Shown: positions 24 to 64,000 of the stretch, piece after piece
Layout of the letters: each line of letters starts with the position of its first letter
Numbering within the stretch: the stretch's first letter is position 1
Assembly: GCA_017993775.1 (NCBI GenBank)
Contig: JAGOMA010000013.1
Span: 1-64,000 of the forward strand
Length of the DNA stretch: 64,000 nucleotides
Direction of reading: 5' to 3'
Source: Chloroflexota bacterium
GTDB lineage: Bacteria > Chloroflexota > Anaerolineae > Promineifilales > Promineifilaceae
Program-made: the position numbers and the translations under genes
The notes under the pieces: model-generated
Database searches by the model: none
The model's input: the letters and a program-made list of their open reading frames with translations, nothing else
What the model was told of the DNA's origin: nothing

Positions 24-956
24 CTATTTAAACACCACCCTCGGCTCTAATGCCAGCGTGCTTTCCCACCACGGCCGTATCCGGCCGCCGATGGGACGAC
101 CGACCCAGCGTTCCATGTCGTAAATAATGGGCCACAGTTTTTCAAAATCGACGCCGGTTCCCAATCCCATTTTGTAGGCCAGGAAAACCAGGTCTTCGGT
201 GGCCAGGTTGCCGGCCGCGCCGGGGGCGAAGGGGCAGCCGCCCAGGCCGCCCAGGCTGCTGTCGAAGATGCGCACGCCGGCTTGCAAGGCGGTGGTGGCG
301 TTGGCCAACCCCATGGCTTGCGTGTCGTGCAGGTGGACGGCCAGCCGGTTCATGTCCAGGCGGCGGCCCAAATCTTCCATGAGGCGGCCCACGGAAAGCG
401 GATCGGCGTGGCCGATGGTGTCGGCGATGGCCAGTTCGTCGGCGCCCAGTTCCCACAGTTTTTCGGCCATAGCGATGGTGCGGTACGGGTTAGTGCGCCC
501 TTCAAAGGGACACACCCAGGCGGTCATCACGTAAACCCGGGTCCAAATGCCTGCTTGTTTGGCCTGGGCGACCAGACTGCGGGTCATTACGAATGCTTCC
601 TGAGACGACATGCGGGTATTGTTCTGGCTGAAGCTCTCGCTCACCGATACGCCGCAGGCGATGGCCCGGCAGCCGGCGGCGACGGCGCGGTCATAGCCGC
701 GCTGGTTGAAGACGAGGCCGATGAATTGGGTGGGGTAACGGCCGTGTTTTTCCAGCGCCGTGGTCATTACTTCATCCGCATCAGCCATTTGGGGAACTGC
801 TTTGGGGTGTACAAAACTGGTTAGCTCGATGTATTGCAGCCCGGCATCGACAAGACCATCCACCAATCGGTTTTTGCGCGCCGTGCTGATGGGGTTGGCC
901 TCGTTTTGCAGGCCATCCCGTGGACCTACTTCATACACTTTGAAAAAATCGCTCAT
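24..956 (-). CDS. mvaB: Hydroxymethylglutaryl-CoA lyase
   Basis: Predicted to cleave 3-hydroxy-3-methylglutaryl-CoA to acetyl-CoA and acetoacetate, the last step of leucine breakdown, in the cytoplasm. The 310-residue product is a complete TIM-barrel lyase of the HMGL family. GPRDGLQNE is at residues 11-19, the metal-site HLHDT at 208-212, and the signature GGLGGCPFAPGAAGN at 236-250, with the catalytic cysteine at about C241. The ATG at 956 is preferred to an in-frame start 27 bases upstream because GGAGG lies about seven bases before it and the protein then begins directly at the barrel. No other leucine-degradation gene is next to it; its neighbour is a rhodanese on the same strand about 200 bp upstream. 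Isopropylmalate-type or homocitrate-type lyases are unlikely given the HMGL cysteine signature. Confidence 0.93.
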   Translation of the reverse strand: MSDFFKVYEVGPRDGLQNEANPISTARKNRLVDGLVDAGLQYIELTSFVHPKAVPQMADADEVMTTALEKHGRYPTQFIGLVFNQRGYDRAVAAGCRAIACGVSVSESFSQNNTRMSSQEAFVMTRSLVAQAKQAGIWTRVYVMTAWVCPFEGRTNPYRTIAMAEKLWELGADELAIADTIGHADPLSVGRLMEDLGRRLDMNRLAVHLHDTQAMGLANATTALQAGVRIFDSSLGGLGGCPFAPGAAGNLATEDLVFLAYKMGLGTGVDFEKLWPIIYDMERWVGRPIGGRIRPWWESTLALEPRVVFK

Positions 957-1044
957 AGTTTGTCCTCCGGGGACAGCACTCAATAAGCGGTTAAAAACGA
1001 AACAAGAGTCTAGCCCGTCAGGTTAAGTCCTGCGTATCGTAGCC

Positions 1045-1090
1045 GCGGTATCCCTACCACGTATTTCCCAAAACGCGGTAAGGATACCGC
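1045..1090. repeat. Imperfect intergenic inverted repeat
   Basis: Arms GCGGTATCCCTACC (1045-1058) and GGTAAGGATACCGC (1077-1090) pair at 13 of 14 positions around an 18-base loop, in the spacer between the rhodanese and HMG-CoA lyase genes. No T-run follows on either strand, so it is not an obvious terminator. The rest of 957-1162 shows nothing else. Confidence 0.6.
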
Positions 1091-1162
1091 AGCTGCAAAT
1101 TCTACGAATAAGACATGAAATTATTTTTGTAACAAAGGGCTAAGTATTTTTCGAGTGGCTGT

Positions 1163-1525
1163 TTAATACTGCCCAACCAAGGGATCGACTTCCAGGGCGT
1201 AGGCGTTAATGCCGCCTTCCAGGTTGAACACGTTTTGCCAACCTTGCCGCAGCAGCCACATCGTCACCTGGGCGCTGCGAATGCCATGGTGACACATTAC
1301 CACAATTTCCACCGTTTTATCGGCCAAAATCAAGTCGGGTAAAGCTGCGGGGCCACGACGAGAAAGCTCGCTCATAGGCGCACATTCTGTCTCGCCGGCC
1401 AGATTCGCTTGTTGATATTCCAGAGGTTCGCGCACGTCTAACAAGATGAATTGAGAGCTGCCAGTGCGGCGTTGGTTTAGTTTTTCGGCAACTTCGTGGA
1501 CGGAAATTTGGGGCAATGAAATCAT
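1163..1525 (-). CDS. Single-domain rhodanese-like protein
   Basis: A 120-residue cytoplasmic rhodanese, expected to carry sulfur as a persulfide or act as a sulfurtransferase. The active-site loop CHHGIRS starts at C78, which is the catalytic cysteine, and LLDVREPLEY at about 28-37 is the conserved rhodanese strand. The length fits a single-domain protein of the GlpE/PspE size class. The ATG at 1525 is chosen because AAAGGA lies about eight bases upstream; an earlier in-frame ATG at 1570 would add 15 residues with no domain content. The substrate and the physiological acceptor cannot be read from the sequence, and the neighbours give no clear pathway link. Confidence 0.88.
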   Translation of the reverse strand: MISLPQISVHEVAEKLNQRRTGSSQFILLDVREPLEYQQANLAGETECAPMSELSRRGPAALPDLILADKTVEIVVMCHHGIRSAQVTMWLLRQGWQNVFNLEGGINAYALEVDPLVGQY

Positions 1526-1675
1526 ACGCAGTTCCTTTGTATTGTGCGATACAGGCGGGAATCTGTGCAAAGTCTATCATAATCTCCTTGCTTAGAGTAT
1601 AACCAGAAATTGTGGCCCAGACCGGACAATTTTGGGAAAACAGACTGGTCTACGGTTAAATTGAAGTCTGTAGGC

Positions 1676-24595: not shown

Positions 24596-24656
24596 AACGA
24601 CTGGAGACAAGGAGAGCCGAGATGAATCTGTGTCCGCTCTCCCAAAGGCAGCTATC

Positions 24657-25451: not shown

Positions 25452-25473
25452 AAAACACGGATTGAACAACTGA

Positions 25474-25546
25474 CGGCAGACGGGAGACTGGAGACTGGAG
25501 ACCAGGGACTGGGGATTGAATCAGTCTTTAATCTCCAGTCACGAAT
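25474..25546. repeat. Degenerate GGAGACTGGAGACC repeat
   Basis: Units of GGGAGACTGGAGACTGGAGACC are followed by TAATCTCCAGTC, another fold-back spacer tract. It fills most of the gap before the response-regulator gene. Confidence 0.65.
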
Positions 25547-26367: not shown

Positions 26368-26376
26368 CAGGCAGCC

Positions 26377-37804: not shown

Positions 37805-37834
37805 CGCCTCTTTCGGACCTCGTTCTCACGCCAC

Positions 37835-40417: not shown

Positions 40418-40514
40418 AGGATCAGCACCACAGCGACCGGGAATTGCCAACTGAATTTGCCCCTCAATTCCACCGTCGCAGAAAAGGGAGACTTCATCAG
40501 TGGGACACACCACC

Positions 40515-40600
40515 ACAAATGAAAATCCGCAGATTTCGCCGATGACGCCGATTTTGCTCCGTGTTTATCCGCGTTCATCCGTGTCCTATTTTCAAGGGAG
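40515..40600. repeat. Spacer tract related to CGCGGATAAACACGGA
   Basis: AAATCCGCAGATTTCGCCG, then TCCGTGTTTATCCGCGTTCATCCGTG: a member of the same family as 27764 and 50898. It ends just before the ribosome site of the next gene. Confidence 0.65.
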
Positions 40601-40606
40601 GAAATC

Positions 40607-41503
40607 ATGAAACGTGCAGTCAGCGTCAGCTTAGGCAGTTCTGAGCGCGACAAACAAGTGGAAATCGAGCTGTTCGGTGAAAAAGTAATCATCGAACGGC
40701 AAGGCACAGATGGCGATGTAGACAAAGCCATCGCCCGCTTTACGGAATTAGACGGCCAGGTTGATGCCTTTGGCGTGGGCGGCATCGACCTCTGGGTGCA
40801 AATGGGCGACAAGCGCTACCCCATTCACGATGCCCAAAAATTGGTCAAAAATGTACACCAGACGCCCGTAGTTGATGGCAGCGGCCTGAAAAATACCCTT
40901 GAGCGCATGGTCGTGCAAACGTTGATCGATGAATTAGGGCCGCAAATGGCCAACGGCCGTGTCCTCATCACCGTCGGCGTAGACCGGTATGGCATGACGC
41001 TGGCCTTCTTTGAAAACAATTACGAAGTGGTTTGCGGCGACCTGATGTTTGCTCTGGGCATTGGCATTCCCGTGCGCTCGCTCAAGCAGCTGCACCTGTT
41101 AGCCAAATTCCTGGTTCCCATCGCCACCCGCCTGCCGCTGAAAATGCTCTACCCCACCGGCGAAAAACAAGACGAAATCATCCCCAAATTTACCAAATAT
41201 TACGAATGGGCAACGGTCATCGCCGGCGACTGCCACTACATCCGGCGGCACATGCCGGCCAATTTGCAAGACAAGATCATCGTCACCAATACGACCACCA
41301 TGAAGGATATGGATTTGTTCCGCGAACGGGGCGTGACCCATGTGATCACCACCACGCCCCAGTTGGACGGCCGTTCCTTTGGCACCAACATGATGGAAGC
41401 CGCGTTAACGGCCGTAGCCGACAAAAAACGCCCGCTCTCCCATGCCGAACTCAGCGACATGCTCCGCCAACTCAACATGAAACCATCCATCCACAAATTA
41501 TGA
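40607..41503 (+). CDS. Quinate-5-dehydrogenase-like protein of uncertain function
   Basis: A 298-residue cytoplasmic protein. Its opening, MKRAVSVSLGSSERDKQVEI, and the stretches FGVGGIDLWVQMGDKRYPI and PVVDGSGLKNTLERMVVQ match proteins that databases often label quinate 5-dehydrogenase, though the basis for that label is not clear to me. A cofactor motif is not evident. The ribosome site AGGGAGGAAATC is strong. It is followed 52 bp later by a nucleotidyltransferase and then a PAP2 phosphatase, both in the same direction, so a role in modifying or activating a small polar metabolite or a lipid head group is possible but unproven. Confidence 0.55.
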   Translation: MKRAVSVSLGSSERDKQVEIELFGEKVIIERQGTDGDVDKAIARFTELDGQVDAFGVGGIDLWVQMGDKRYPIHDAQKLVKNVHQTPVVDGSGLKNTLERMVVQTLIDELGPQMANGRVLITVGVDRYGMTLAFFENNYEVVCGDLMFALGIGIPVRSLKQLHLLAKFLVPIATRLPLKMLYPTGEKQDEIIPKFTKYYEWATVIAGDCHYIRRHMPANLQDKIIVTNTTTMKDMDLFRERGVTHVITTTPQLDGRSFGTNMMEAALTAVADKKRPLSHAELSDMLRQLNMKPSIHKL

Positions 41504-41555
41504 GTCTGCACCCAAACAAACCAACACCCCAGCAGACAACAGGAGGAAAATCCTA

Positions 41556-42329
41556 ATGGACTGTATCATCATCGCGGGTGGGCTGGCCACCCCGGAAGAA
41601 CCGATGTACGCCCTCACTCAGGGCAAACCCAAAGCGCTTTTAACCATGGGCAACCGCACCATGCTAGAGCGCGTCGTCGATGCCGTGCAAGGCTCGCAGT
41701 ACGTAGATGAAGTTGTCGTGGTAGGCTTAGGCAGCGATATGGGCATGACCTTTCAGCGCCCGGTCAACCACCTGCCCGATCATGGCAGCCTGGTAGCCAA
41801 TATCGTCGCCGGCGTCAATTGGGTACGCGAACGCGACCCCAACGTCAAAATTGTCTTGGGCGCTTCCGCCGACGTGCCGCTGATAACCAGCCAGATGGTC
41901 GACACCTTGATCGATATGTGCCGTCCATTCGACGCGGGCATTTATTACACCTATGCCAGCCGCGAAACCATGGAAAAACGCTTTCCTCATTCCAACCGCA
42001 CCTTTGTTAAACTGAAGGGCATAGAAATTGCCGGCGGCGACCTGGGAATGCTGGACCCGGCCATCCTCACCAACAATGAAGAACTGTTCACCGCCCTTTC
42101 CAATGCCCGCAAACACGCCTGGAAAATTGCGCGCGTTGTCGGCATTGGCCTGCTGCTAAAATTCTTGTTCCGCCGCCTGGGACCAAAGGAAATTGAAGCC
42201 GAAGGCCGCCGCGTATTGGGCATGCCGCTGAAAACCATCAACCTGCCCTACGCGGAGATGGCGATGGATGCCGACAAACCCCACCAGGTAGAAATGCTGC
42301 GCGCCGAGTTGGAGCAATTAAGTCGGTAA
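41556..42329 (+). CDS. MobA-like nucleotidyltransferase
   Basis: A 257-residue NTP-transferase of the GT-A fold. The nucleotide-binding opening is IIAGGLATPEEPMYALTQGKPKALLTMG (residues 4-31), with the conserved glycines and GKPKALL typical of sugar- or molybdopterin-type transferases. A metal-binding aspartate in ASADVPLI lies at about residue 110, matching the D-x-P pattern. The likely reaction is transfer of a nucleotide to a phosphorylated acceptor; neither is identified. AGGAGG precedes the ATG. It is sandwiched between the quinate-dehydrogenase-like gene and a PAP2 gene. Confidence 0.85.
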   Translation: MDCIIIAGGLATPEEPMYALTQGKPKALLTMGNRTMLERVVDAVQGSQYVDEVVVVGLGSDMGMTFQRPVNHLPDHGSLVANIVAGVNWVRERDPNVKIVLGASADVPLITSQMVDTLIDMCRPFDAGIYYTYASRETMEKRFPHSNRTFVKLKGIEIAGGDLGMLDPAILTNNEELFTALSNARKHAWKIARVVGIGLLLKFLFRRLGPKEIEAEGRRVLGMPLKTINLPYAEMAMDADKPHQVEMLRAELEQLSR

Positions 42330-42370
42330 CGTATGGTGGCCACGCAGCACGCGCCACATTCACACTTTGC

Positions 42371-42859
42371 ATGAACTTCACTGCCTTGCTTGATCGTGAC
42401 AAAGCCTGGTCGCAGCGGTTAGCCGACCGGGTGGCGGGCCGATTTAGCCACAAGCTGGCCTGGCTGCTGGCGCGTTCCGGCGACAGTTGGTTGTGGGCGT
42501 TGATTATTATTTGGTTGGTGTGGCGCTGGCAGCCTGTGGGCTGGGTTTTGTTGTGGGTGGTGGTGGTCACGGCCGTTATCGTGGCCATCAGCAAAGGTAT
42601 TTTTCAGCGCAGACGGCCGTCTGGCCCTGGCCGCGCCCTCTCCACCGACAAATACTCTTTCCCGTCTGGTCATGCCGCCCGCGCCGCAGCCGTCGCCCTG
42701 ACGCTGTCTTTTGCCCTGCCCATTTGGACGCCGGTGTGGCTGGTTTGGGCCACGGCCGTTTCCCTCGCCCGCGTCGCCCTTTCCCGCCACTACCTATCCG
42801 ACATCTGCGCCGGTTGGCTCGTCGGCTTGCCGACAGCCCTGCTAATTAATCTGCTGTAG
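42371..42859 (+). CDS. PAP2-family phosphatase
   Basis: A 162-residue membrane phosphatase of the PAP2 superfamily. The three signature blocks are present: KGIFQRRRPSGPGR (motif 1), YSFPSGHAARAAA (motif 2, with the catalytic histidine) and SRHYLSDICAGWLVG (motif 3, nucleophile histidine), with four to five helices around them. Such enzymes remove phosphate from lipid phosphates or undecaprenyl diphosphate. No good ribosome site precedes the ATG. It lies 41 bp after the nucleotidyltransferase, so a shared pathway is plausible. Confidence 0.92.
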   Translation: MNFTALLDRDKAWSQRLADRVAGRFSHKLAWLLARSGDSWLWALIIIWLVWRWQPVGWVLLWVVVVTAVIVAISKGIFQRRRPSGPGRALSTDKYSFPSGHAARAAAVALTLSFALPIWTPVWLVWATAVSLARVALSRHYLSDICAGWLVGLPTALLINLL

Positions 42860-42925
42860 CAACAACATCTTATCAGTGATGGCTAGACGTCCCTTTAGAG
42901 TCAATCTTTTCCTACGAGGTCTCTT

Positions 42926-43939
42926 ATGAACCCCAATTACATCGCCATCGAAGGCGTTATCGGCGTGGGCAAAACCACCCTGGCCCGCCTGCTCCAGCCC
43001 CGCTTTGCCGCCTCCATTCTGCTGGAAGTTTTCGAGGAAAACCCGTTCCTGGCCGAATTTTACGGCGACCGCGAGCGCTACGCCTTCCAAACCCAACTTT
43101 TTTTCTTGCTCAGTCGCTATCATCAACAGCGCCTGGCCGTGCCTGAAGCGCTGCACCGTGGCATGCTCATTTCCGACTACACGTTTGCCAAGGATGAATT
43201 GTTTGCCTGGCTAAACCTGAAGGACGACGAGCTGGCGATGTACGGCCGTGTCCATGCCGCCCTCGGTGAAAAAATCCCTAAACCCGGCCTCATCGTCTAC
43301 CTGCACGCCGACCATGATCTGCTGATGCGCCGCATCACCCTGCGCGACCGTCCTTACGAGCGCAACATGGACCCCAACTACATCCGCGAACTAACCTCGG
43401 CCTACGAAGCGTGGCTTTCTAATCTGCAAGACATCCCCGTACTCACCATCGACACCAACAACCTGGATTTCCTGGCCCGCGACGAAGACCTGAACCACGT
43501 CGAAACCATTATCCGCGCCGCCCTGGCACAGCAGCCTGCCCCTTCGCCCGACAGCGAAGCGCGGCAAACCCTGCTCAACGGCGGCGGGCTGCCAGCTTAT
43601 CAGCAGTTTCACCGCCAATTGGACGCCAGCAAAAACTTCGACCCTGACCTGTTCTTTAATTATATTTTGCTGATGGAGGAAACGGGCGAAATTGCCAGCG
43701 AACTGGTGAAGGTGTGGGGTGACAGCCGGCGGTTGGGGGAAGACGGCCGTTCCGCCGCCGAAGCCCACCAGGAAGCCCTCAACCGCCATCGCGCCAACCT
43801 GCGCGGCGAGTTGGCCGACCTGCTGGCCTACACGCTCAAACTCGCCAACTACGCCGGCATCGACCTGGAACAGGCTTATCTGGAAAAAATGAAACAAAAC
43901 ATCGGCCGCCAATGGCCCCAGGAACGGACCCTGCCGTAA
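42926..43939 (+). CDS. Deoxynucleoside kinase fused to a MazG-like domain
   Basis: A 337-residue fusion. Residues 1-200 are a deoxyadenosine/deoxycytidine-type kinase: P-loop EGVIGVGKTT (9-18), DRERY- and D-E-L-type catalytic residues, and the LID-like RRITLRDRPYER region. Residues 215-335 are a MazG-like nucleotide pyrophosphohydrolase domain with MEETGEIASELVKVWGD and ELADLLAYTLKLA, the paired acidic metal-binding helices. Such a fusion would couple nucleoside salvage to removal of surplus or damaged nucleoside triphosphates. ACGAGGT precedes the ATG. The frame is continuous with no sign of a shift. Confidence 0.82.
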   Translation: MNPNYIAIEGVIGVGKTTLARLLQPRFAASILLEVFEENPFLAEFYGDRERYAFQTQLFFLLSRYHQQRLAVPEALHRGMLISDYTFAKDELFAWLNLKDDELAMYGRVHAALGEKIPKPGLIVYLHADHDLLMRRITLRDRPYERNMDPNYIRELTSAYEAWLSNLQDIPVLTIDTNNLDFLARDEDLNHVETIIRAALAQQPAPSPDSEARQTLLNGGGLPAYQQFHRQLDASKNFDPDLFFNYILLMEETGEIASELVKVWGDSRRLGEDGRSAAEAHQEALNRHRANLRGELADLLAYTLKLANYAGIDLEQAYLEKMKQNIGRQWPQERTLP

Positions 43940-44140
43940 GCCTGTGCAAGTGTTCGGGTTGCGAAGGCCGTTAGATGGCGGCCCTGACCAAAGATATTTT
44001 GTGCGATAACGCCTGACGATTGGCAAATACCAGATTGAAAAGGGTGCAACTAGACACGGCCGTTGGTGTTCTCACTAGAGATATGGCCAGACTTCGGCCC
44101 GATTAAGCACCATTAATTGTTGAGATAAGGAGAAAATCGA

Positions 44141-44791
44141 ATGACGTTTGAATTGCTGTGCGCCACCATCATTGCTTTATTATTTGGTACGATGATTTGT
44201 TTTGGCGGTTATCGCCTGTTTCTGGCGCTTCTACCGATTTGGGGATTCTTTTTCGGCTTCGGCCTGGGCGCGCAGAGCGTCCAACTCTTGTTTGGTCAGG
44301 GATTTTTGTCCACCGTAACCGGTTGGGTGGTCGGATTTGTTGTAGCCATCCTGTTCTCTGTTTTGTCTTATTTGTTTTATGCGTGGGCCGTGGCCATTAT
44401 CGCCGGATCGCTGGGGTATGGTCTGGGCATTGCCCTGATCGGCGTGTTCAGCGCCAACCTGACGCTGATTAGCTGGTTCGTGGGCATGATCATGGCGGCT
44501 GTGTTTATCATTATCACCTTCCGCTTCGCGCTGGCGAAGTATATGATCATTGTGGCCACGGCCGTTGGCGGAGCCGCCGCTACCATTGCCACCCTGGTCA
44601 TCGGTGTCGATAACGTGCAGCTCCTGCGCCTGGCCGAAAATCCCGCCAAAGTCATGGCCACCGGCTCCTTTATCTGGACGCTGTTGTTTTTGTTGATGGC
44701 CGGGGCCGGCATTGCCATGCAAGTCGCCGTTAATCGCGTGTATGAAATTGAAGCCTACAATCGTTGGGCAGAAATTCAAGCCCAGGCCTGA
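44141..44791 (+). CDS. DUF4203-like multi-helix membrane protein
   Basis: A 216-residue membrane protein with seven predicted hydrophobic segments and little else. The glycine-rich GGYRLFLALLPIWGFFFGFGLG near residues 23-44 resembles DUF4203/TMEM198-like proteins. Function is unknown. AAGGAG precedes the ATG. Upstream, an ACGGCCGT palindrome (44056) lies in the spacer. A hairpin and a bidirectional terminator follow the gene. Confidence 0.7.
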   Translation: MTFELLCATIIALLFGTMICFGGYRLFLALLPIWGFFFGFGLGAQSVQLLFGQGFLSTVTGWVVGFVVAILFSVLSYLFYAWAVAIIAGSLGYGLGIALIGVFSANLTLISWFVGMIMAAVFIIITFRFALAKYMIIVATAVGGAAATIATLVIGVDNVQLLRLAENPAKVMATGSFIWTLLFLLMAGAGIAMQVAVNRVYEIEAYNRWAEIQAQA

Positions 44792-44809
44792 TCGCTTTCC
44801 TGAAAAGGA

Positions 44810-44842
44810 AGACCCTAAGGGTTTCTTAAACCTTTAGGGTCT
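44810..44842. repeat. CCCYAAGGG hairpin, copy 5
   Basis: AGACCCTAAGGGTTT (44810-44824) and AAACCTTTAGGGTCT (44828-44842), with one mismatched pair and a three-base loop. It is the short-loop version of the family, just upstream of the bidirectional terminator. Confidence 0.85.
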
Positions 44843-44844
44843 AT

Positions 44845-44882
44845 AAAAAAGCGCGCCGCCAAAATTGGCGGCGCGCTTTTTT
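44845..44882. terminator. Bidirectional rho-independent terminator
   Basis: AAAAAAGCGCGCCGCC and GGCGGCGCGCTTTTTT form a stem around AAAATT, with a T-run after it on both strands. It separates the convergent genes ending at 44791 (+) and 44901 (-). Confidence 0.97.
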
Positions 44883-44900
44883 GTCAGGCAATCATGGCCA

Positions 44901-46469
44901 TCAAACTTCTTGCTCTTCAAACACCGCCAAAGAAGTAATCAGCAGCATGACGATGAGGGTAACGCTGGCGGCCAAAGCGCCCGCATTGGCCGTCGCCGAT
45001 CCCAGCCCCATTTGGCTGGCCCAGGCCACCAACCCGGATGGCGCAACCGAGCCGACCACCGGCAGCGCGCCCATCAGCAGTAGCAGTACAGCACCCAACA
45101 AGCCCAGCCCCGCACCCGACCCCACCGAATTGCCGATGGCGCTGCCAAGCAGGGCAACGGCCGTATAACAAAGCAGCCAGACCCACAACAACCCGCTGCC
45201 CAACAGGAAAGCCACAAAGTCCAACGGCCCGAACAATACCAGGGTGTAGTAATACGTGGCCAGGGCCGCCAGCAAAAAAGCTACCGCATACAGCAAGGCC
45301 TGAGCGACAAATTTGCTGAGCAAAAACGCCCAGCGCGGCATGGGCTTGCTGAGAATGAGCGCCGCAGTGCCGCGTTCTTTTTCACCAGCCACTGCGCCCA
45401 TGCCCACCAATATGGCGATGATGAACCCAAACTGGGTGATGTTTTTAATGTACTGGACGATGGCGTCGTTGATCGTGGGCTGTGGGATAAGGTCGGCGAA
45501 CTGTTCCGCGCCTTCAACCATGGTTAACATTTGCGGTGTGAATTTGGCCAGCAGCGGCGACATCAGCCCAAACAGCAGAAAGACAGCCCAAATGACCAAT
45601 ACTCGGCGCGTGCGCCACTGCTGCAGCAGCTCTTTGCGTGTGGCTGTCATAAAGGCGCGCCATTCTTCACGCACGGCCGTTACCCGATGCGGTTGCGCCA
45701 ATTCCGCCTTGTCTCGCGTCCACCATAACCAGCTTGCGCCGGGAATCAGGGCCGCAGCGAAGATCAATTCCATCTGCCAGCCCGGCACAGCCAGCGCCGA
45801 CAGGTAAACGGCCGTCGTATCCACCAGTGCATGATACCCCACGCCCACCACAAAATAGAGTGGGTTTCGCCGGGCAAACGCCTGCCACACCATCATCGTT
45901 ACCACCACATGCAAACTCATCGCCACCATACGTTCGATCACCGGAATCACAGCCGCCAACGGTGAGGCCAGGAAGAACGACAACTGCTGCTCCACGGCCG
46001 TCAGTTGTTCCGGCGACAGGTTCAATGTATTCAGGTCGGTGTTTTGCAGGCTGAACAGCGAACTCGCTGAGCCGGCCACCAACACGCCGCCAATCAACAT
46101 CGCCTCAATGCCGCCATGCCCCAAACCCACCATGACGCCCTCGGTCCACCGATGCGCTTTGTTGAAGCGGCGCAGCAGCCCAATCGCCGCCGCCCGCGCC
46201 ACGCCTTCAGACAAACCCGCCGACATACCCAGGATAACGGCCGTTTGCAGCAGTTTTGGCGCGTCGGCAGCCACCGGACCAATCACCCCCAGGTCGGTCA
46301 GCCAATTGTTGAGGGGAATGTGGTACGCCTGCGACGCGACAAAAGCCGCCGCCCCCGCACAAAACAAATACCAGGGCACGACCACGCGCCGCCGCCACCA
46401 TACCGCCGCGCCCACCGGCAATAAAATCATGACAAGAACTGCAATTGTATAAGCCAGGATTAACATCAT
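44901..46469 (-). CDS. YhfC-family membrane protein fused to ABC-2 permease
   Basis: A 522-residue membrane protein in two parts. Residues 1-250 match the YhfC family of putative intramembrane metalloproteases: GLSEGVAR (E88, R92), EGVMVGLGHGGIEAM (E110, H118, E122), and histidines at about 187 and 213. Residues 265-522 are an ABC-2 type permease: a charged loop EEWRAFMTATRKELLQQWRTRR, then helices and GAVAGEKERGTAALILSKPMPR. The frame is unbroken. It follows the ABC ATPase gene of the same operon, which probably pairs with the permease half. A fusion of these two families suggests export coupled to proteolysis or CAAX-like processing, but no substrate is visible. The ATG at 46466 is an equal alternative. 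Confidence 0.82.
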   Translation of the reverse strand: MMLILAYTIAVLVMILLPVGAAVWWRRRVVVPWYLFCAGAAAFVASQAYHIPLNNWLTDLGVIGPVAADAPKLLQTAVILGMSAGLSEGVARAAAIGLLRRFNKAHRWTEGVMVGLGHGGIEAMLIGGVLVAGSASSLFSLQNTDLNTLNLSPEQLTAVEQQLSFFLASPLAAVIPVIERMVAMSLHVVVTMMVWQAFARRNPLYFVVGVGYHALVDTTAVYLSALAVPGWQMELIFAAALIPGASWLWWTRDKAELAQPHRVTAVREEWRAFMTATRKELLQQWRTRRVLVIWAVFLLFGLMSPLLAKFTPQMLTMVEGAEQFADLIPQPTINDAIVQYIKNITQFGFIIAILVGMGAVAGEKERGTAALILSKPMPRWAFLLSKFVAQALLYAVAFLLAALATYYYTLVLFGPLDFVAFLLGSGLLWVWLLCYTAVALLGSAIGNSVGSGAGLGLLGAVLLLLMGALPVVGSVAPSGLVAWASQMGLGSATANAGALAASVTLIVMLLITSLAVFEEQEV

Positions 46470-46491
46470 CTTTTCAACCTAAAAAACAACC

Positions 46492-46554
46492 AAGACCCGA
46501 AGGGTTTTTTGCCCGGTACCTCCAAGTAACCAGGGACAAAACCCTTCGGGTCTT
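46492..46554. repeat. CCCYAAGGG hairpin, copy 6 (perfect arms)
   Basis: AAGACCCGAAGGGTTTT (46492-46508) and AAAACCCTTCGGGTCTT (46538-46554) are perfect 17-bp arms, located between the ABC ATPase gene and the fused permease gene of one operon. It could therefore act as an intercistronic RNA structure. Confidence 0.92.
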
Positions 46555-46565
46555 TCCAAGGTCGC

Positions 46566-47507
46566 CTATGCGCTCATTTGCAAAAACACGTCTTCCAACG
46601 ACGGCCGTATCCATTCATACCGCGTCAGCGCCACGCCTTGCGCCAGCACCAGCGGCAAAATTTGCTGCTTTGCCTTTTCTGGATTAGCGACAGTGATACG
46701 CACGGCCGTTGCATCCAGGTTGTCTGGCGTAACGGCCGTTACCCAATCGGCCTGCTCCAGCGCGGCAATGAGCGACGGCCGTAATCCCTCACACGCCCGG
46801 TCCAACACCAGCGCAATCACATTGGTGGCATACCGCGACAACAACTCGTCTCGTGCGGCCACCAGCAGCAGTTTGCCCTTGTGGATGATGCCCACCGTAT
46901 CGCACACCCGCTCCACATCGCCCAAAATATGGCTGGACAAAAACACCGTCACGTTGCCGCGCAGCCGGTTGATCAGGTCCAAAACCTCATATCGCCCCGC
47001 CGGATCCAACGCGCTCGTCGGCTCATCCAAAAAGAGAACGGGCGGCCGGTGCAGCAGCGCCTGGGCAATGCCCAATCGCTGCCCCATCCCGCCGGAAAAA
47101 CCGCCAATGCGCCGTTTCGCCGCGTCTTCCAGGTCTACCAGGGCCAGCACCTCGCCAATGCGCTGTTTGCGCGTTGGCCCATCCAGATTAAAAATCCGGC
47201 CCACATAATCCAGATATTCCAAGGGCGTCATCCAGTTATAAAACGCCGGGTCCTGAGGCAGATAGCCAAACGCGGTGCGCGCGGCGCTGTCGGAATTCGT
47301 CGTTTCCATACCTTGAATCCAGGCTGAACCGGCCGACGGCCGTGCCAGGCCAGTCATCAGGCGAATGGCTGTCGTCTTGCCAGCCCCATTTCGCCCCAAA
47401 AAGCCAAATACCGACCCGGCGGCCACTGTCAGGTCTAGCCCGGACAACGCCTGCACGTCGCCATACTGCTTACTTAAATTTTCGCAATGAATTGCCGGTT
47501 GGTTCAT
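46566..47507 (-). CDS. ABC transporter ATP-binding protein
   Basis: A 313-residue ATPase: Walker A GRNGAGKTT (about 39-47), signature FSGGMGQRLGIAQALL, Walker B VLFLDEPTSALDP and an H-loop SSHIL. A C-terminal region of about 90 residues is typical of ABC-2 exporters. The ATG at 47507 is used because GGAG lies just upstream and the protein then opens at the domain; a longer reading from 47618 is not supported. Its partner is the fused permease downstream. It follows the PLDc_N gene by about 20 bases. Confidence 0.92.
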   Translation of the reverse strand: MNQPAIHCENLSKQYGDVQALSGLDLTVAAGSVFGFLGRNGAGKTTAIRLMTGLARPSAGSAWIQGMETTNSDSAARTAFGYLPQDPAFYNWMTPLEYLDYVGRIFNLDGPTRKQRIGEVLALVDLEDAAKRRIGGFSGGMGQRLGIAQALLHRPPVLFLDEPTSALDPAGRYEVLDLINRLRGNVTVFLSSHILGDVERVCDTVGIIHKGKLLLVAARDELLSRYATNVIALVLDRACEGLRPSLIAALEQADWVTAVTPDNLDATAVRITVANPEKAKQQILPLVLAQGVALTRYEWIRPSLEDVFLQMSA

Positions 47508-47526
47508 ACTCTCCAATCTCCAGGCT

Positions 47527-47733
47527 CTAATCTTCACCCCGCCCGACCAAAAAATAGATAATCGGCCCGATGGTGTTGACAAAGATGATGACCAGGACCC
47601 AAATCCATTTTGGCCCACGGGCAGACGGCCGTCGCGCCAAATCTATCAACGCCGCAATCATCAAACCCAATTGTAAAATGACCAATGGCAGCAGCAGCGC
47701 CAGATTTTGTTGTACCCACTCTAAACCAGTCAT
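47527..47733 (-). CDS. PLDc_N-domain small membrane protein
   Basis: A 68-residue two-helix membrane protein with the short PLDc_N/phospholipase-D-nuclease N-terminal pattern (helix, RRPSARGPKWIWVLVIIFVN, then TIGPIIYFLVGR). Such proteins commonly accompany ABC-2 exporters with a PadR- or ArsR-type regulator; their role is unknown. It overlaps the upstream regulator gene by four bases and precedes the ABC ATPase. Confidence 0.87.
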   Translation of the reverse strand: MTGLEWVQQNLALLLPLVILQLGLMIAALIDLARRPSARGPKWIWVLVIIFVNTIGPIIYFLVGRGED

Positions 47734-48284
47734 GTTGTTTCCGTTCCTTTTTCGTTGACGGGATGGTTGATAAAAACAAATTTGCGTTTAGCACGGCCGT
47801 TTCCCGGTTTATTTGTCGCCAGTTTGACAAACGCCGCGTTTAAATCCGCATGTAACGTATCCATTTCAGCTAGCGAAGCATAAAAAAACAGTTCCGAATA
47901 ACCCACCCGGTCAGCCAGCAGATCCAGACCGCCCGTGTCCGCCTCGGTCGTTTCCAGGTAATCGGCAAACCCCCGCATCACATTCATGATGTAAGTGGTG
48001 AAGTACTGCATGTGCTCAACGGCCGTTAAATTAGCCACGTCATCAGCATCGAGATGCAGCGGCTGCGCCAATTGGTACGTTTTCTCCTGAATCCCATTCA
48101 CCAACCGCGCCTCCGTCACGGCGATTATCTCGCCGGCCAACAGCAGCTTCAGGTGGCGATAAATGGAGGATTTTGGCACATCGGGCAGTTGATCGGCCAA
48201 CTCCTGGGTGGTCAAGGTCTCTCCGGCCAGCACCTGCAAAATGCGAAAGCGCACCGGATGCAATATCAGATCGGCTTTTTTCAT
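47730..48284 (-). CDS. Winged-helix transcriptional regulator (ArsR-like)
   Basis: A 184-residue regulator with an N-terminal winged helix (about 1-75: LHPVRFRILQVLAGETLTTQ, then ELADQLPDVPKSSIYRHLKLL) and an effector-binding or dimerisation helical part. An inverted repeat upstream (48316-48339) may be its own operator. It is the first gene of the operon that continues with the PLDc_N protein, ABC ATPase and YhfC-ABC permease, and overlaps the second by four bases. The regulator is thus likely to control that exporter. The effector is unknown. Confidence 0.88.
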   Translation of the reverse strand: MKKADLILHPVRFRILQVLAGETLTTQELADQLPDVPKSSIYRHLKLLLAGEIIAVTEARLVNGIQEKTYQLAQPLHLDADDVANLTAVEHMQYFTTYIMNVMRGFADYLETTEADTGGLDLLADRVGYSELFFYASLAEMDTLHADLNAAFVKLATNKPGNGRAKRKFVFINHPVNEKGTETT

Positions 48285-48315
48285 CGCTCTTTCCTATTTT
48301 ATTATCAACGTTGCG

Positions 48316-48339
48316 AACATTATCATTATTGATAATGTT
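48316..48339. promoter_or_regulatory. Candidate operator of the exporter operon
   Basis: AACATTATC, six bases, GATAATGTT: a perfect 9-bp-arm dyad 32 bp upstream of the regulator start codon, in an AT-rich stretch unlike its surroundings. This position suits autoregulation by the winged-helix protein. Confidence 0.65.
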
Positions 48340-48468
48340 ATTCAATATAATAATGAGATATTCCCATTTTGTCAAGCAGTTGCCCGCCGTCTGGTCAGGC
48401 AACTCAGCCGGCGGCGCTGCACAGCGCTGACAAAAGAATAAGCCGGTCGTTCACCTCATCGCGGGATC

Positions 48469-48504
48469 AAAAAGTCTCTGGCACTGCACCAGTGCCAGAG
48501 ACTT
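48469..48504 (-). terminator. Rho-independent terminator of the Flp pilin gene
   Basis: CAGTGCCAGAGACTT and its complement (48472-48486 with 48490-48504) form a perfect 15-bp stem with a three-base loop. On the minus strand it is followed by TTTTT (48473-48469). It lies 95 bp after the pilin stop. The remainder of the 314-bp gap upstream of it is featureless apart from the operator. Confidence 0.9.
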
Positions 48505-48598
48505 CAGGTGGCGATTATCCAAAGGATGGCCGCCGTTCAATTATGAGATGTCCAGACTGCTAACTTGCAAACCTTGCCCAGATCAACCGCCAGCAGGC

Positions 48599-49021
48599 TT
48601 AATCATCAATGCGCGGGCCATACCCGGCCGAAGACGATCCCCCATCACCGCTGGTCACGGTGATGGTCCCGGCGTGATGCCCCACACGGGAGACCGTCAG
48701 GGTGCAGGTGCTGGTACAGTTAACCGGACCAGCCGTATGATTGCTTTGCGAATCAACGGCCGTAATCGTCGTGGGCGAATTCACCGTCACTGTGACACTA
48801 ACATTATTACCCTGACCGCCGTTGCTGCGTTCGGCCGTAACACTGGCAATGCCCCCACCGCCCCCACCCAATGAACTGCTGATCTGGCTGAATACCTCGC
48901 CAACCTGCGGCCCCAAAATGGTTAAAATGGCGATGATAACGACCGCCACTAGCATCAGGAGCAAGGCATACTCAACCAGGCCTTGCCCCTGATCTCTGCG
49001 CTTCTGCAATAATTTGTTCAT
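48599..49021 (-). CDS. Flp-type pilin with C-terminal extension
   Basis: A 140-residue protein with a type IVb pilin (Flp) N-terminus: short positive leader, then the hydrophobic helix GQGLVEYALLLMLVAVVIIA with the Gly-x-x-x-x-Glu pattern at the prepilin cleavage site (E17 or so). A Gly-rich linker (GGGGGG) and a beta-rich extension of about 85 residues follow, rich in Thr/Val/Ser. The extension is longer than in most Flp pilins. No prepilin peptidase or Tad secretion gene lies nearby, so assembly machinery must be elsewhere. It is transcribed alone, with its own terminator. Confidence 0.85.
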   Translation of the reverse strand: MNKLLQKRRDQGQGLVEYALLLMLVAVVIIAILTILGPQVGEVFSQISSSLGGGGGGIASVTAERSNGGQGNNVSVTVTVNSPTTITAVDSQSNHTAGPVNCTSTCTLTVSRVGHHAGTITVTSGDGGSSSAGYGPRIDD

Positions 49022-49297
49022 GATAAAACCTCACTTAGATAAAAGTAAAAAGAGATACGGATAAAAAATGTGGGGTTAATCATAAAGTAAACCGCTACCA
49101 GATGACAATACCTCATCTGTACTAAAACAGACCAATATCAAAGTAACTCGCCAAATCGATCCCTGCATTTCTTCTCCAAATTGGTACACTTATGCCTGAT
49201 CATCTTTTAACGCAACATTTTGGAGAATGGGGTATCCCAAGACCCTTTACTTCTCTGCGTTCGCCGCGCTCTGCGGTGACATTCTAAGGAGACAACA
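49022..49297. other. Spacer between divergent pilin and GGT genes
   Basis: A 276-bp divergent gap. It is AT-rich near the pilin gene and, at about 49244-49284, includes TTCTCTGCGTTCGCCGCGC and TCTGCGG, a fragment of the spacer family seen at 62101-62170. No promoter is clear enough to call. Confidence 0.5.
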
Positions 49298-50887
49298 ATG
49301 CCAGGAGTTATTTCTGCCGGCGGGCCGCAAACGGCCGTTGCCGGAGCCACCATCCTACAACAGGGCGGGAACGCCGTCGACGCCGCCGTTGCCGCCTCAT
49401 TCGCCTCGTTTATCGCCGAAACCGGCGTGGTCCACCTGGGCGGCAGCGGCATCGCCCATATTTTCGACCCGCAAAACGGCCGTTCCTTCGTCTACGATTT
49501 CTTTTCCACCACCCCTGGGCTAGACGGCCGTCCGCCGGCCAAGATGGATTTTCAGGCCGTCACCATTGATTTCGGCGCGACCACCCAGAGTTTCCACCTG
49601 GGCCGCGCCTCCGTCGCCGTGCCCGGCAACATCGCCGGACTCTGCACCCTGGCCAGCAACCACGGCCGTCTCCCCCTGACCACCCTCCTCCAACCGGCCA
49701 TCAAACTGGCCGAAGAAGGCACAGCCATCGAGCCGTTCCAGGCCGATACCTGCGACCTGCTGGCTCCGCTGTACACCCACACCGCCGGGATGCGTGAAAT
49801 TTTTGCCGCCAACGGCCGTATCATCCAACCCGGCGAGCACCTCCACATCCCCCACCTGGCCGACACGCTGCGGGCGTTGGCGGCAGAAGGGGCGGATTAT
49901 GCCCGAAACGGCCGTCTCGCCCAGGCCATCCTCGCCGACCAGCAAGCCCACGGCGGTCTGCTCACCGCCGCCGATTTAGCCGGTTATCAAGTGCGCCAAC
50001 TACCCTCCATCCGCCTCCCCTACCGCGAATTTGAGCTGCTGCTGCCGCCGCCTAGTTCCACCGGCGGCGTCCTAACCGCCTTCACCATGAAGCTGCTCGC
50101 CGGCTTCAACGTGCGCCACCTCCGGCACGGTTCCGCCGCCCACCTCCAGTTGTTATACGAAGTGATGGCCGCCGCCAGCCGCGCACGCATCCACTGGGAC
50201 CGCAGCAGCGAGTCACTGCCGGTCGACGATGCGCTGGCCCATTTCCTCAGCGACGCCTTCATCGCCCGCTACCACGACGAAATCGAAACCGCCCTGGCGG
50301 AAAAAACACCCTCCGCCGGCCCCGCCGAACCGAAAAGCGCCAACAACACCAGCCACCTCAGCGTCATTGATGGCGACGGTTTGGCCGTCAGCCTGACCAC
50401 CACGGCCGGGGAATCGGCCGGATTTGTCGTGCCGGGCACAGGCTACATCCCCAACAACATGCTCGGCGAGGAAGATTTGCACCCCAACGGCTTCCACACC
50501 CGCCCCGCCGGACAGCGCCTGCCCACCATGATGACGCCCACCATCGTCCTGAAAGATGGCCAGACGCGATTAGTCCTGGGCAGCGGCGGCAGCGTACGCA
50601 TTCGCAGCGCCATCTTGCAAGTGCTCAGCAATTTGCTTGATTTTCGCCTGCCGTTGCACGAGGCGGTGAACACTGCCCGCGTACACATCGAAAACGGCGT
50701 CTTGCAGTGCGAACATGGGTATGACGAAACGGCCGTCGCCGAACTCGAATCCCTGGGCTACGCGGTCAACCGCTGGCCGACCCGCAGCATCTACTTTGGC
50801 GGCGCGCACAGCGTCTCCCGCACCGACAACGGCCGTTTCGTAGCCGCCGGCGACAACCGACGAGGCGGCGCAACGGCCGTTGCCTAA
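49298..50887 (+). CDS. Gamma-glutamyltransferase-family Ntn hydrolase
   Basis: A 529-residue protein of the gamma-glutamyltranspeptidase family, expected to self-cleave before Thr351 (NNTSHLSV) to make a large and a small subunit, with Thr351 as nucleophile. Other marks are GGNAVDAAVAASFA near 28-41, HLGGSGIAHIF, and GQRLPTMMTPTIVLKDGQ in the small subunit. No signal peptide is seen, so the enzyme may act in the cytoplasm on glutathione-like or other gamma-glutamyl substrates. AAGGAG precedes the ATG. It begins a same-strand series (GGT, DUF711, MurE-like, DUF6391, HolA). Confidence 0.88.
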   Translation: MPGVISAGGPQTAVAGATILQQGGNAVDAAVAASFASFIAETGVVHLGGSGIAHIFDPQNGRSFVYDFFSTTPGLDGRPPAKMDFQAVTIDFGATTQSFHLGRASVAVPGNIAGLCTLASNHGRLPLTTLLQPAIKLAEEGTAIEPFQADTCDLLAPLYTHTAGMREIFAANGRIIQPGEHLHIPHLADTLRALAAEGADYARNGRLAQAILADQQAHGGLLTAADLAGYQVRQLPSIRLPYREFELLLPPPSSTGGVLTAFTMKLLAGFNVRHLRHGSAAHLQLLYEVMAAASRARIHWDRSSESLPVDDALAHFLSDAFIARYHDEIETALAEKTPSAGPAEPKSANNTSHLSVIDGDGLAVSLTTTAGESAGFVVPGTGYIPNNMLGEEDLHPNGFHTRPAGQRLPTMMTPTIVLKDGQTRLVLGSGGSVRIRSAILQVLSNLLDFRLPLHEAVNTARVHIENGVLQCEHGYDETAVAELESLGYAVNRWPTRSIYFGGAHSVSRTDNGRFVAAGDNRRGGATAVA

Positions 50888-62199: not shown

Positions 62200-62220
62200 T
62201 CTGAGGACTCAATTGTAGCC

Positions 62221-62254
62221 AGACCTGACAGGTTTGGGAAAACCTGTCAGGTCT
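62221..62254. repeat. GACCTGACAGG hairpin, copy 3
   Basis: AGACCTGACAGGTTT (62221-62235) and AAACCTGTCAGGTCT (62240-62254) are perfect 15-bp arms with a four-base loop, ending 27 bases before the LCP start codon. Confidence 0.9.
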
Positions 62255-62281
62255 GACCCATCTACGCTAAAATCAGGCGGT

Positions 62282-63781
62282 ATGAAGCGCTCCTTTTCCT
62301 GTTATGTAATTTTAATTGGGCTGCTGACGGCCGTCTGGCTGCTGATTGGCTGCCGCCCTACCACGGTCACGGTCTTACCCACGGTGGCGGCGACGGCCGT
62401 TGTCCAAATCGCCACGCCCGCCGCCCCGGCCGACCAACAGCCCATCACCCTGCCCCCCACCAACACCGCCCAACCAACCAAGCCACCCAACCAACCTATC
62501 CAACCAACCACCACCCTGCCGCCCACATTTACGCCACAGCCCACCCCAACGCCGCGGCCGACGATACGGCCGTTTGCCACCATGCAGGCCACCCCGCCAA
62601 CGGCCGTGCCCAGCCCCATGCCCCCCTTCCCCAAAAGCGAGGCCATCACCAACATCGTCCTGGTGGGCAACGACGTGGCCGAACCGCAAGGCGGCCGCAC
62701 CGACAGCATCATCCTGGTATCCATCAACCGCGAGACAAAAACAGCCACCATGCTCTCGCTGCCGCGCGATTTGTATGTGGTGATTCCCGGCTGGCAAATG
62801 ACCAAAATCAACCTGGCCCTGCCCCACGGCCACGGCGTCGATTACCCCGGCGCAGGCGGCGGCCTGCTGAAAGATACCATCGAATACAACCTGGGCATCC
62901 CGGTCGATTATTACGCGCGCATCGGCTTTGACGGCTTCAAAAGCGTCGTCGACGCCGTGGGCGGCGTGGAGGTGGTGGTTACTTGCGCCCTGCGCGACTG
63001 GCGGCTCAAGTCGCCAGAATCAGACCAGACAGTCGAGGAAAATTGGGAGCAGTTTACCCTGGAACCGGGCGTTTATGCGATGGATGGCGACCTGGCGCTC
63101 TGGTATGCACGTTCGCGGCGCACCACCAACGATTTTGAGCGCGGCCGGCGGCAGCAGCAGGTGCTGCGGGCCATCTTTGATCGCGGCCTGGACCAAAATA
63201 TCATCGCCGACATCCCCGATTTGTGGCGCGTGTATCGGGAGGCGGTAGAAACGGACCTGACGCTGCCGGTGGTACTGGAACTGGCCGCCCTGGCCCCGGC
63301 CGTGCGCGAGAACGGCGTTCAGCATTTGGCCATCGCCGGGGATGCGGTGCAGTCGTGGCAGGAACCGGGGACAGGTTGGTCGACGCAGTTGTTAAGGCCG
63401 GAAACGGCCGTGCCCATTCTGCGCCGGGTCATGCAGCCGCCCGCCCTCAACCGCGCCACCCGCCCGCCCATCGTCGTAGAAATCGTCACCGACAACGAAG
63501 ACCTATACCGGCAAATGGCTGAAAATTTGTCCTGGTATGGCTTTGTGCCGCGCTTTAAGCCCACAAACGACCCGCCACCGGCCCACACGCGCATCGACTA
63601 CTTCGGTCCGAATTTCAAGGGGTCGTACAGCGAACTGTTGAGCTGGCTGTTCAAACAAAGGGCAACGGCCGTTAACCTGACTCCCGACGCAGCCAGCAGC
63701 GCCAACTACCGCGTCACTTTGGGCTACGACGCCGACCCCTGCCTGCCCTCTTTTGTGGCCCCGGTTGGGGAAAATCCTTAA
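62282..63781 (+). CDS. LytR-CpsA-Psr (LCP) family protein
   Basis: A 499-residue membrane-anchored enzyme expected to transfer lipid-linked glycopolymers onto peptidoglycan or a related cell-surface acceptor. One N-terminal helix (about 6-22) is followed by a Pro/Thr linker (about 40-110) and the LCP core (about 115-330: GGRTDSIILVSI, SLPRDLYVVIPG, MTKINLALPHG, YARSRRTTNDFERGRRQQQV). The core holds the conserved arginines and aspartates for the pyrophosphate lipid. A LytR_C-like domain (about 390-480) follows. The ATG at 62282 is favoured as it begins the signal helix directly; a start at 62234 would translate a hairpin. Confidence 0.92.
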   Translation: MKRSFSCYVILIGLLTAVWLLIGCRPTTVTVLPTVAATAVVQIATPAAPADQQPITLPPTNTAQPTKPPNQPIQPTTTLPPTFTPQPTPTPRPTIRPFATMQATPPTAVPSPMPPFPKSEAITNIVLVGNDVAEPQGGRTDSIILVSINRETKTATMLSLPRDLYVVIPGWQMTKINLALPHGHGVDYPGAGGGLLKDTIEYNLGIPVDYYARIGFDGFKSVVDAVGGVEVVVTCALRDWRLKSPESDQTVEENWEQFTLEPGVYAMDGDLALWYARSRRTTNDFERGRRQQQVLRAIFDRGLDQNIIADIPDLWRVYREAVETDLTLPVVLELAALAPAVRENGVQHLAIAGDAVQSWQEPGTGWSTQLLRPETAVPILRRVMQPPALNRATRPPIVVEIVTDNEDLYRQMAENLSWYGFVPRFKPTNDPPPAHTRIDYFGPNFKGSYSELLSWLFKQRATAVNLTPDAASSANYRVTLGYDADPCLPSFVAPVGENP

Positions 63782-63848
63782 ATCGTTCGTTGTGAACATT
63801 CTTCGTCACATTATCATGTAAAACAAAATAGAATTTCAGGAGGCTTTG

Positions 63849-64000
63849 ATGACTAATCCGCAAACAGCTTTACGTGTACAACTGGAAGAAAGCCGGCGAG
63901 AGCTACTGCGTGTGTTGGCTGGGTTGAGCGAGGCGGAGTGGGAAACGGCCGTTTACGCCGAAGGAACCACCTGGCAGGTTATCGACCTGCTGCGCCATCT
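63849..64000 (+). CDS. DinB-like/maleylpyruvate isomerase N-terminal domain protein, partial
   Basis: The first 50 codons of a gene cut by the window edge. The visible part reads as a helix with LRVQLEESRRELLRVLAGLS followed by W-x-x-x-V-Y and W-Q-V-I-D-L-L-R-H-L, the first two helices of the DinB/YfiT-like metal-binding fold (the terminal His is the first metal ligand). CAGGAGG precedes the ATG. An extended ACGGCCGT palindrome (63945-63952) encodes T-A-V. The substrate is not known. Confidence 0.7.
   Translation, partial: MTNPQTALRVQLEESRRELLRVLAGLSEAEWETAVYAEGTTWQVIDLLRH

Follow-up and report, generated by a model that had tools for sequence, protein, structure and literature searches.

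The palindromic octamer ACGGCCGT, which is built on the core CGGCCG, is iterated throughout a 64,000-nucleotide stretch of a Chloroflexota genome (contig JAGOMA010000013.1, positions 1 to 64,000; hereafter the window). By their anatomy, ACGGCCGT and its variant words in related genomes are highly iterated palindromes (HIPs) outside the cyanobacteria, and are new in word, in host group and in the variety of their dialects. The sites are nearly frozen between two congeneric genomes, and the sequence around them changes on average from G-rich to C-rich across the word. We tentatively favour the explanation that ACGGCCGT is a two-way, Chi-like anchor for a putative DNA repair or recombination machine, frozen between its G-rich and C-rich flanks, to which we assign a probability of roughly one in three.

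HIP1, a palindrome of this kind, was reportedly first described by Robinson et al. in 1995, and a 2018 study is said to have addressed its selection and periodicity. The class was named by Elhai (2015, PMC4390886), where HIP1 is the cyanobacterial octamer GCGATCGC, HIP densities range from about 500 to 2,500 per million bases, one-base deviations from HIP1 concentrate at the first and last base, extensions of one or two bases are reported, and the significance of HIP1 is still termed little known. All HIP cases in the consulted part of that paper are from cyanobacteria, of which one group, C1, is without highly over-abundant HIP1. Its main text contains no word starting with CGGCCG and none starting with skew, phage or purine, and ACGGCCGT is not among the words of its consulted sections. 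A text search of the literature for ACGGCCGT returned no paper on such a palindrome, as judged by title.

Abundance, placement and dialects of the word

ACGGCCGT occurs 162 times without mismatch in the 64 kb of the window, for which the base composition predicts 1.68 and 100 dinucleotide-preserving shuffles gave a mean of 1.78 and a maximum of 7; the runner-up palindromic octamer has 12 copies. A sequence-only reading of the window had counted 23 copies within the first 10 kb and 47 up to 20 kb against an expectation of about 0.5 per 20 kb, and both the counts and the expectation were reproduced. The genome containing the window (G000; 6.0 Mb, 113 contigs, 92.9% complete) has 12,611 copies, or 2,102 per million bases (about one per 480 letters), compared with 237 copies of the control word TGCCGGCA, which is ACGGCCGT read backwards. 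A sample of 496.8 kb (8.3% of the genome), consisting of the window, contigs C98 and C14 and part of C87, contains 1,076 copies (2.17 per kb). An order-3 model that was trained after masking of the word predicts 12.7, and the next palindromic octamer (76 copies) matches its own expectation. The excess first noticed in the window is thus genome-wide and far above the Markov expectation. Among one-base variants in the sample, those altered at an outer base are over-represented (268 against 146 expected) and those altered at an inner base are under-represented (93 against 164). Both the density and the pattern of deviations are those described for HIPs.

Genes were placed with a simple, purpose-made gene caller, by which 906 of the sampled copies are genic (2.27 per kb), 162 are intergenic (1.66 per kb) and 8 fall on gene edges. 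Genic copies are divided 443 to 463 between the two gene strands and 510/265/131 among the codon phases, for which codon usage predicts 11.6, 4.7 and 0.8; the commonest phase encodes Thr-Ala-Val. The word therefore occurs in every codon phase, in genes of both orientations and in spacers, as the sequence-only reading had stated. The spacing of the copies is near geometric with a mean of 460 bases, although irregular in detail, with fewer intervals than expected below 20 bases, a slight surplus at 20–200 bases and an excess of multiples of three, which is what codon phase would give. The bases nearest to the word prefer the symmetric arrangement GGAA-ACGGCCGT-TTCC in all codon phases and between genes.

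ACGGCCGT was searched for in 297 genomes, 52 from the window's family, 4 from another family of the order and 241 from elsewhere in the class. Within the family, 29 genomes contain 2,887–15,176 copies, 10 contain 505–1,727 and 13 contain 14–434, compared with 0–430 copies in the 245 genomes outside it. Abundance of ACGGCCGT is a trait of one family, and the same excess is not seen in the outside genomes. A scan of titled genomes for three close copies yielded at least 115 stretches, many of them chance matches in high-GC genomes; 50 with a density above 1.2 per kb and a GC content below 63% were retained, and the GC rule dropped a few dense high-GC stretches (e.g. L122 and L152). Titles were available for 34 of the 50 dense loci among the matches listed, and in contrast to the cyanobacterial hosts of the HIPs named above, 33 of these are Chloroflexota, Chloroflexi, Anaerolineae or Ardenticatenaceae. 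The remaining dense contig, L120, is filed under Methanosarcinales; since that genome has only 95 copies of CGGCCG, L120 is probably a binning contaminant. Proteins of G000 match 10 of 55 loci tested over at least half their length, some at only 29% identity; the identities with L107, L064 and L081 (titled Chloroflexi or Anaerolineae), for example, are 73–86%. The five viral loci among these 55 gave no G000 match over half a protein.

Four sampled members of the family, all low in ACGGCCGT, use other words. TCGGCCGA dominates in G007 (244 copies in 160 kb) and G031 (123 in 120 kb), and GCGGCCGC is abundant in G014 (140 in 100 kb), these counts being from sampled stretches; TGCCGGCA is the word of G011 (19 in the 20 kb sampled, 3,665 genome-wide). 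At least four dialects are thus present in one family. In G003 and G023, the hexamer CGGCCG reaches 3.4 per kb without any favoured outer base, and it is also in excess in G017 and, in another family of the order, in G035 (100 against 18.6) and G036 (44 against 17.0). This hexamer-only excess perhaps represents an earlier or decayed state. In individual stretches of G035 (L509), G003 (L172) and G023 (L321–L324), CGGCCG is about 3–5 times over-abundant without a dominant octamer. No dominant octamer was seen in small samples of G009, G021 and G027, and the little-sampled genus of G005 and G025 has 657–2,982 copies of ACGGCCGT. A different hexamer, GCCGGC, is strongly over-abundant in L521 (G280; 112 against 27.4) and L511 (G085; 67 against 22.9), from other families of the class.

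Site conservation and the GC-skew flip

Conservation of sites between close relatives, a check proposed in the sequence-only reading, was assessed for a single genome pair, G000 and its congener G001 (88.1 kb aligned at 92.7% identity). The two genomes share 224 of 238 sites, 9 are found in G000 only and 5 in G001 only; counted in both directions, 448 of 462 site-views are conserved (97.0%). In the same alignment, octamers that match the word in composition are conserved at 58.9%, copies of CGGCCG that are not part of the word at 68.3% and four other hexamers at 52–74%. Fourfold-silent positions differ in 1 of 429 cases inside the word and in 16.8% of 13,542 cases outside it, and all three codon positions inside the word differ in only 0.2–0.5%. 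Gap-free alignment was obtained for 13 of the 14 unshared sites, and at 7 of them the two genomes are separated by a single base, an outer one in 5 cases. Sites are therefore mostly gained and lost by substitution, not by insertion, and the slow insertional spread that had been listed among the possible causes is not supported.

These data also bear on the proposal that the word is a by-product of codon use or a mutational quirk without function. Such an origin would be in keeping with the concentration of 510 of the 906 genic copies in the Thr-Ala-Val phase; however, each phase is at least 40-fold above its codon expectation, spacers carry 1.66 copies per kb, and silent positions inside the word change about 70 times less than those outside. 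After the silent-site result, the by-product explanation is difficult to maintain without supposing that some active process restores the word, and we give it hardly any weight.

Perfect copies of ACGGCCGT lie, on average, at a flip of GC skew, with G-rich sequence on the 5' side and C-rich sequence on the 3' side of both strands, which fades over tens to hundreds of bases. At fourfold sites, the 5' skew is 0.67 at 3 bases from the word, 0.65 at 4, 0.42 at 10–14, 0.35 at 15–19, 0.20 at 30–39, 0.15 at 40–59, 0.09 at 60–79 and 0.05 at 300–400, with the mirror image on the 3' side, and the proportions of A and T are nearly constant beyond 20 bases. Around the control CGGCCG outside the word, the skew is near zero from 10 bases outward, and the same holds for TGGCCA save in single bins (e.g. 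−0.155±0.052 at 15–19). Over all positions at 5–19 bases, the skew is 0.212±0.007 for the perfect word (n=1,076), 0.02±0.014 for outer one-base variants (n=268), 0.052±0.025 for inner one-base variants (n=93) and 0.01±0.013 for outer two-base variants (n=350). The flip depends on the perfect octamer, and variants one base off are without it.

Between adjacent copies, the skew rises from negative to positive in all six interval-length classes, and the near flanks are alike across codon phases and between genes. In six contig pieces with overall strand skews of both signs, the skew is above the local value to the left of the word and below it to the right in every piece, which speaks against replication direction as the cause. 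Two further explanations were tried and rejected. Flank bases pair across the word no more than their own frequencies predict, so the flip is no hairpin; and enriched 5-mers agree with plain G-richness, as judged by eye, leaving no specific flank motif.

The flip recurs with each sampled dialect word in genomes rich in that word. At 10–19 bases, it amounts to 0.161±0.020 for TCGGCCGA in G007 and 0.298±0.028 in G031, to 0.244±0.026 for GCGGCCGC in G014 and to 0.191±0.065 for TGCCGGCA in G011 (only 19 sites). The corresponding values for ACGGCCGT are 0.207±0.010 in G001, 0.208±0.019 in 16 loci of other family members and 0.162±0.010 in the 50 dense titled loci among the matches listed. No flip was found at this distance around GCGGCCGC in G001 (0.014±0.052, 31 sites), or around CGGCCG in G023 (0.014±0.015) and G003 (0.002±0.034).

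HIP1 was analysed in relatives of the genome of L072, which is titled uncultured cyanobacterium and rich in HIP1; three of four genomes were used, G321 being left out with six tiny contigs of 202–267 bases. A GC-skew flip is present in two of the three, G322 (0.101±0.036 at 10–19 bases, 0.089±0.025 at 20–39) and G317 (0.077±0.023 and 0.061±0.016). ACGGCCGT thus resembles HIP1 as a GC-rich palindrome of the same density class, with variants mainly at the outer bases, with replacement of the word between relatives and with this flip, but differs in its host group and core. The parallel to HIP1 with a different core, drawn in the sequence-only reading, is borne out. No mention of a GC-skew signature around such palindromes was found in the literature searched, which was covered in part and did not include a 2011 HIP1 survey or the 2018 HIP1 study.

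Candidate enzymes, viral DNA and other features of the window

For HIP1, Elhai (2015) proposed methylation-directed mismatch repair. Applied to the present word, an orphan methyltransferase would mark CGGCCG, and repair that reads the mark would create and keep the octamer as a by-product. CGGCCG is indeed the constant core of three of the four dialects, it is enriched on its own in other genomes of this family and order (G003, G023, G017 and G035), and both the pattern of one-base variants and the density of ACGGCCGT are as Elhai reports for HIP1. On the other hand, the rule of a methylated C after G leaves the outer A/T or T/A unexplained, which is a further difference from HIP1, and long-range skew is no part of the model in the consulted text of Elhai (2015).

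C5 methylases (PF00145) match in 14 of 40 genomes, with no match in eight word-rich ones (G000, G001, G002, G004, G006, G010, G018 and G019), three of which are only 75–78% complete, and a C5 methylase was therefore rejected as the writer. Matches to PF01555, of many kinds, occur in 37 of the 40 genomes. The three genomes without one (G005, G009 and G021) are all poor or middling in ACGGCCGT, as methylation by such an enzyme would have it, but the word-rich G002 has a single match, which is below the cut-off. The D12 methylase (PF02086), in about five subtypes by eye, is present in 31 of 35 family genomes whether or not they have the word, and was also rejected. At first, P0001, a 667-residue DUF1156-like methylase with a zinc ribbon, appeared promising, as it was found in 41 of 52 family genomes and 26 of the 29 word-rich ones, absences being soft because at most four candidates were scored per genome. 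However, it also occurs at E <1e-200 in 18 genomes outside the family, each with no more than 287 copies of ACGGCCGT, and it was rejected as well. In one stretch (3.7–20 kb) from each of these 18 genomes, CGGCCG is clearly in excess in G035 and G036, less so in G085 and G240, and little or not at all in the other 14. Genes for a DUF1156-like zinc-ribbon methyltransferase of about 670 residues lie at positions 73–2076 of L190 and 1234–3099 of L204, and the enzyme is conserved across much of the family and occurs sporadically elsewhere in the class.

G000 itself has no C5 methylase match but carries D12 and N6/N4-type enzymes, none of which was found to track the word. The search for an orphan methyltransferase ended with no tracking enzyme among the families searched, which again differs from HIP1, and a methyltransferase target, as put forward in the sequence-only reading, is not supported by this census. 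We consider methylation-directed repair a possible but rather unlikely cause.

Chi sites offer a second comparison. Chi works in one direction, the G-rich strand 5' of Chi is the strand given to RecA, and some phages carry Chi. ACGGCCGT shares with Chi that it is a short, GC-rich, over-abundant, species-specific word carried by some phages, and the orientation of its flip, with the G-rich strand 5', is that of the RecA strand at Chi; it differs in being palindromic, whereas Chi is non-palindromic and one-way. The known readers were sought with one profile, PF12705 (the AddAB/RecB nuclease domain), by which frames cut at contig ends may be missed. Frames of at least 1,000 residues occur in G031, a TCGGCCGA genome, in the word-poor G020 and G049, and in few ACGGCCGT-rich genomes (see below), so that AddAB/RecBCD was rejected as the shared reader. 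In contig C18 of G000, adjacent AddA-like and AddB-like frames of 1,148 and 1,118 residues were recognized by Pfam and NCBIfam, below the NCBIfam cut-offs on the partial frames scanned. A shorter protein with a PF12705 domain (about 285 residues) is widespread in the family and in the cyanobacterial genomes analysed, irrespective of the word. According to the consulted part of a review of cyanobacterial repair, recBCD is less well conserved outside marine Prochlorococcus and Synechococcus, which have retained it; together with the lack of highly over-abundant HIP1 in group C1, this hints that recBCD and HIPs may divide the work between them.

In IMG/VR, groups of three close copies of ACGGCCGT were found in 19 stretches, five of which (L346, L347, L354, L358 and L362) exceed 1.8 copies per kb, with 2–3.7 per kb and 168 sites in total. 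L354 carries major head, portal and terminase genes, and therefore derives from a tailed phage, with 48 copies in 13.6 kb; L347 and L362 bear partition genes and could be plasmid-like. Near the word, the five loci have a skew of 0.174±0.048 at 3–4 bases, but no flip at longer range (see below). A looser cut (>1.0 per kb; nine loci, 187 sites) likewise lacks the long-range flip (−0.008±0.021 at 10–19). By comparison, 31 HIP1-dense viral loci (>1.5 per kb and GC <60%, from 80 listed) do show a weak flip of 0.069±0.011 at 10–19 bases (795 sites). Eight viral stretches with TCGGCCGA were found, none of which matches the density of the five ACGGCCGT loci save L367, a 1.7 kb piece with four copies; in the three with more than 1.2 copies per kb (15 sites), the flip is absent (−0.015±0.070 at 10–19). 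In G000, an island at 79–92 kb of contig C14, adjoining prophage-like genes, has 42 copies of ACGGCCGT and a weak skew of 0.07±0.037 at 5–19 bases. The wider region at 66–92 kb (L249 and L250) contains prophage-like genes for a terminase, a ParB-type DNA methylase and a helicase, a 7.4 kb stretch without the word and, after it, the dense island.

The features of the window are collected in Table 1. At 27829–32235 (minus strand), two ABC-transporter permease genes stand beside an 865-residue frame, and this locus overlaps the longest stretch without the word. The frame has no Pfam match at E 1e-5, and the transporter was perhaps recently acquired. A short intergenic repeat of about 50–120 bases at 40484–40600 has some 50 similar places in G001 and belongs to a dispersed repeat family.

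Table 1. Features of ACGGCCGT and its surroundings in the window.
Feature	Coordinates	Strand	Remark
ACGGCCGT, 162 copies, mean spacing ~395 bases	71..63952		exact match
First copy	71..78
Part aligned piecewise to congener G001	24164..50219		entered the site-conservation set with other contigs
Longest stretch without the word, 3.3 kb	28769..32077		contains most of an 865-residue frame
Closest pair of copies, 18 bases apart	36455..36480
Last copy	63945..63952

Weighing of the explanations and their meaning

The Chi-like anchor that we favour would work as follows. The word would be read by a dimeric protein, as its palindromic form and the symmetric GGAA-ACGGCCGT-TTCC preference suggest. With the word as its loading site, a machine would proceed outward on both sides with a fixed strand polarity, in break repair or recombination, and this process, or weak selection for its needs, would make the skew. 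Sites would be kept since the repair or protection of DNA would suffer in their absence. The skew agrees with an outward process of fixed polarity, the freezing with use of each site or its active restoration, and dense carriage by a phage with a role in the protection or repair of linear DNA.

Several observations weigh against this proposal. Of the 27 ACGGCCGT-rich genomes queried with PF12705, only three (G000, G013 and G028) have AddAB/RecB-type frames of at least 1,000 residues, so no known Chi reader is common to them, and for this reason our confidence is held at 0.35; to our knowledge, no Chi site is a palindrome. The flanks of the word diverge at an ordinary rate between G000 and G001 (12–18% at fourfold sites), and the ratio of A-G to C-T exchanges over all columns at 5–79 bases is 0.98 (within a factor of 1.05), whereas a polar repair tract could leave the two unequal. 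A hint of polar mismatch repair by unequal transitions in the fourfold counts vanished over all columns, and that candidate was rejected. The skew therefore reflects a preference for C or G, arising by mutation or by weak selection. Moreover, intergenic copies are conserved less tightly (7 of 182 columns differ, compared with 9.6% outside the word), the five dense viral loci have no long-range flip (−0.006±0.023 at 10–19), and HIP1 in the third cyanobacterial genome, G324, has none beyond about 4 bases (0.012±0.031 at 10–19, 0.020±0.022 at 20–39).

If the word instead bound an abundant architectural or segregation protein, and its sites were selected for chromosome packing, their wide spread, near-geometric spacing, symmetric flank preference in all contexts and presence in phage-type DNA would follow. 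Binding alone, however, offers no reason why the skew should be strand-asymmetric and should fade only over a distance of more than 100 bases, and the departures from regular spacing at short distances and at multiples of three do not favour packing, so we regard this as improbable. A DNA uptake sequence (DUS) or uptake signal sequence (USS), kept by molecular drive through natural transformation, is more improbable still. DUS and USS are known for thousands of conserved copies and for dialects between species, which the strong conservation of ACGGCCGT and its dialects between genera recall. We know of no long-range symmetric skew at DUS or USS, and a skew over 100 bases and more would not be foreseen. 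Phage-type DNA is denser in the word than the sampled chromosome, which uptake would not be expected to favour. In addition, ACGGCCGT is a perfect palindrome, and Haemophilus and Neisseria use non-palindromic uptake sequences according to the consulted text of PMC1939737.

Of the causes listed in the sequence-only reading, a repair or recombination signal is now favoured, short of proof. The same type of machine may, by analogy, underlie HIP1 of cyanobacteria. It is possible, though doubtful, that the HIPs of unrelated phyla are of one functional kind, all of them two-way, Chi-like anchors of an outward-working putative repair machine, with the skew sawtooth, the need of phages for the word and the switch of dialect as joint parts of the claim.

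The second, independent set of HIPs, with at least four dialects in one family, provides natural replicates. The skew flip, seen in two phyla, is a quantitative signature that tells working words from chance copies, and it points to an outward, strand-polar process. Viral DNA that is dense in the word yet free of the flip has the word without the chromosomal footprint, and thereby separates the need for the word from that footprint. That thousands of sites are nearly frozen is itself puzzling in terms of population genetics. If HIPs are of one functional kind, the strand composition of the chromosome would follow a sawtooth set by the copies, phages would need the word for their survival, and word and reader could change jointly from one dialect to another within a family.

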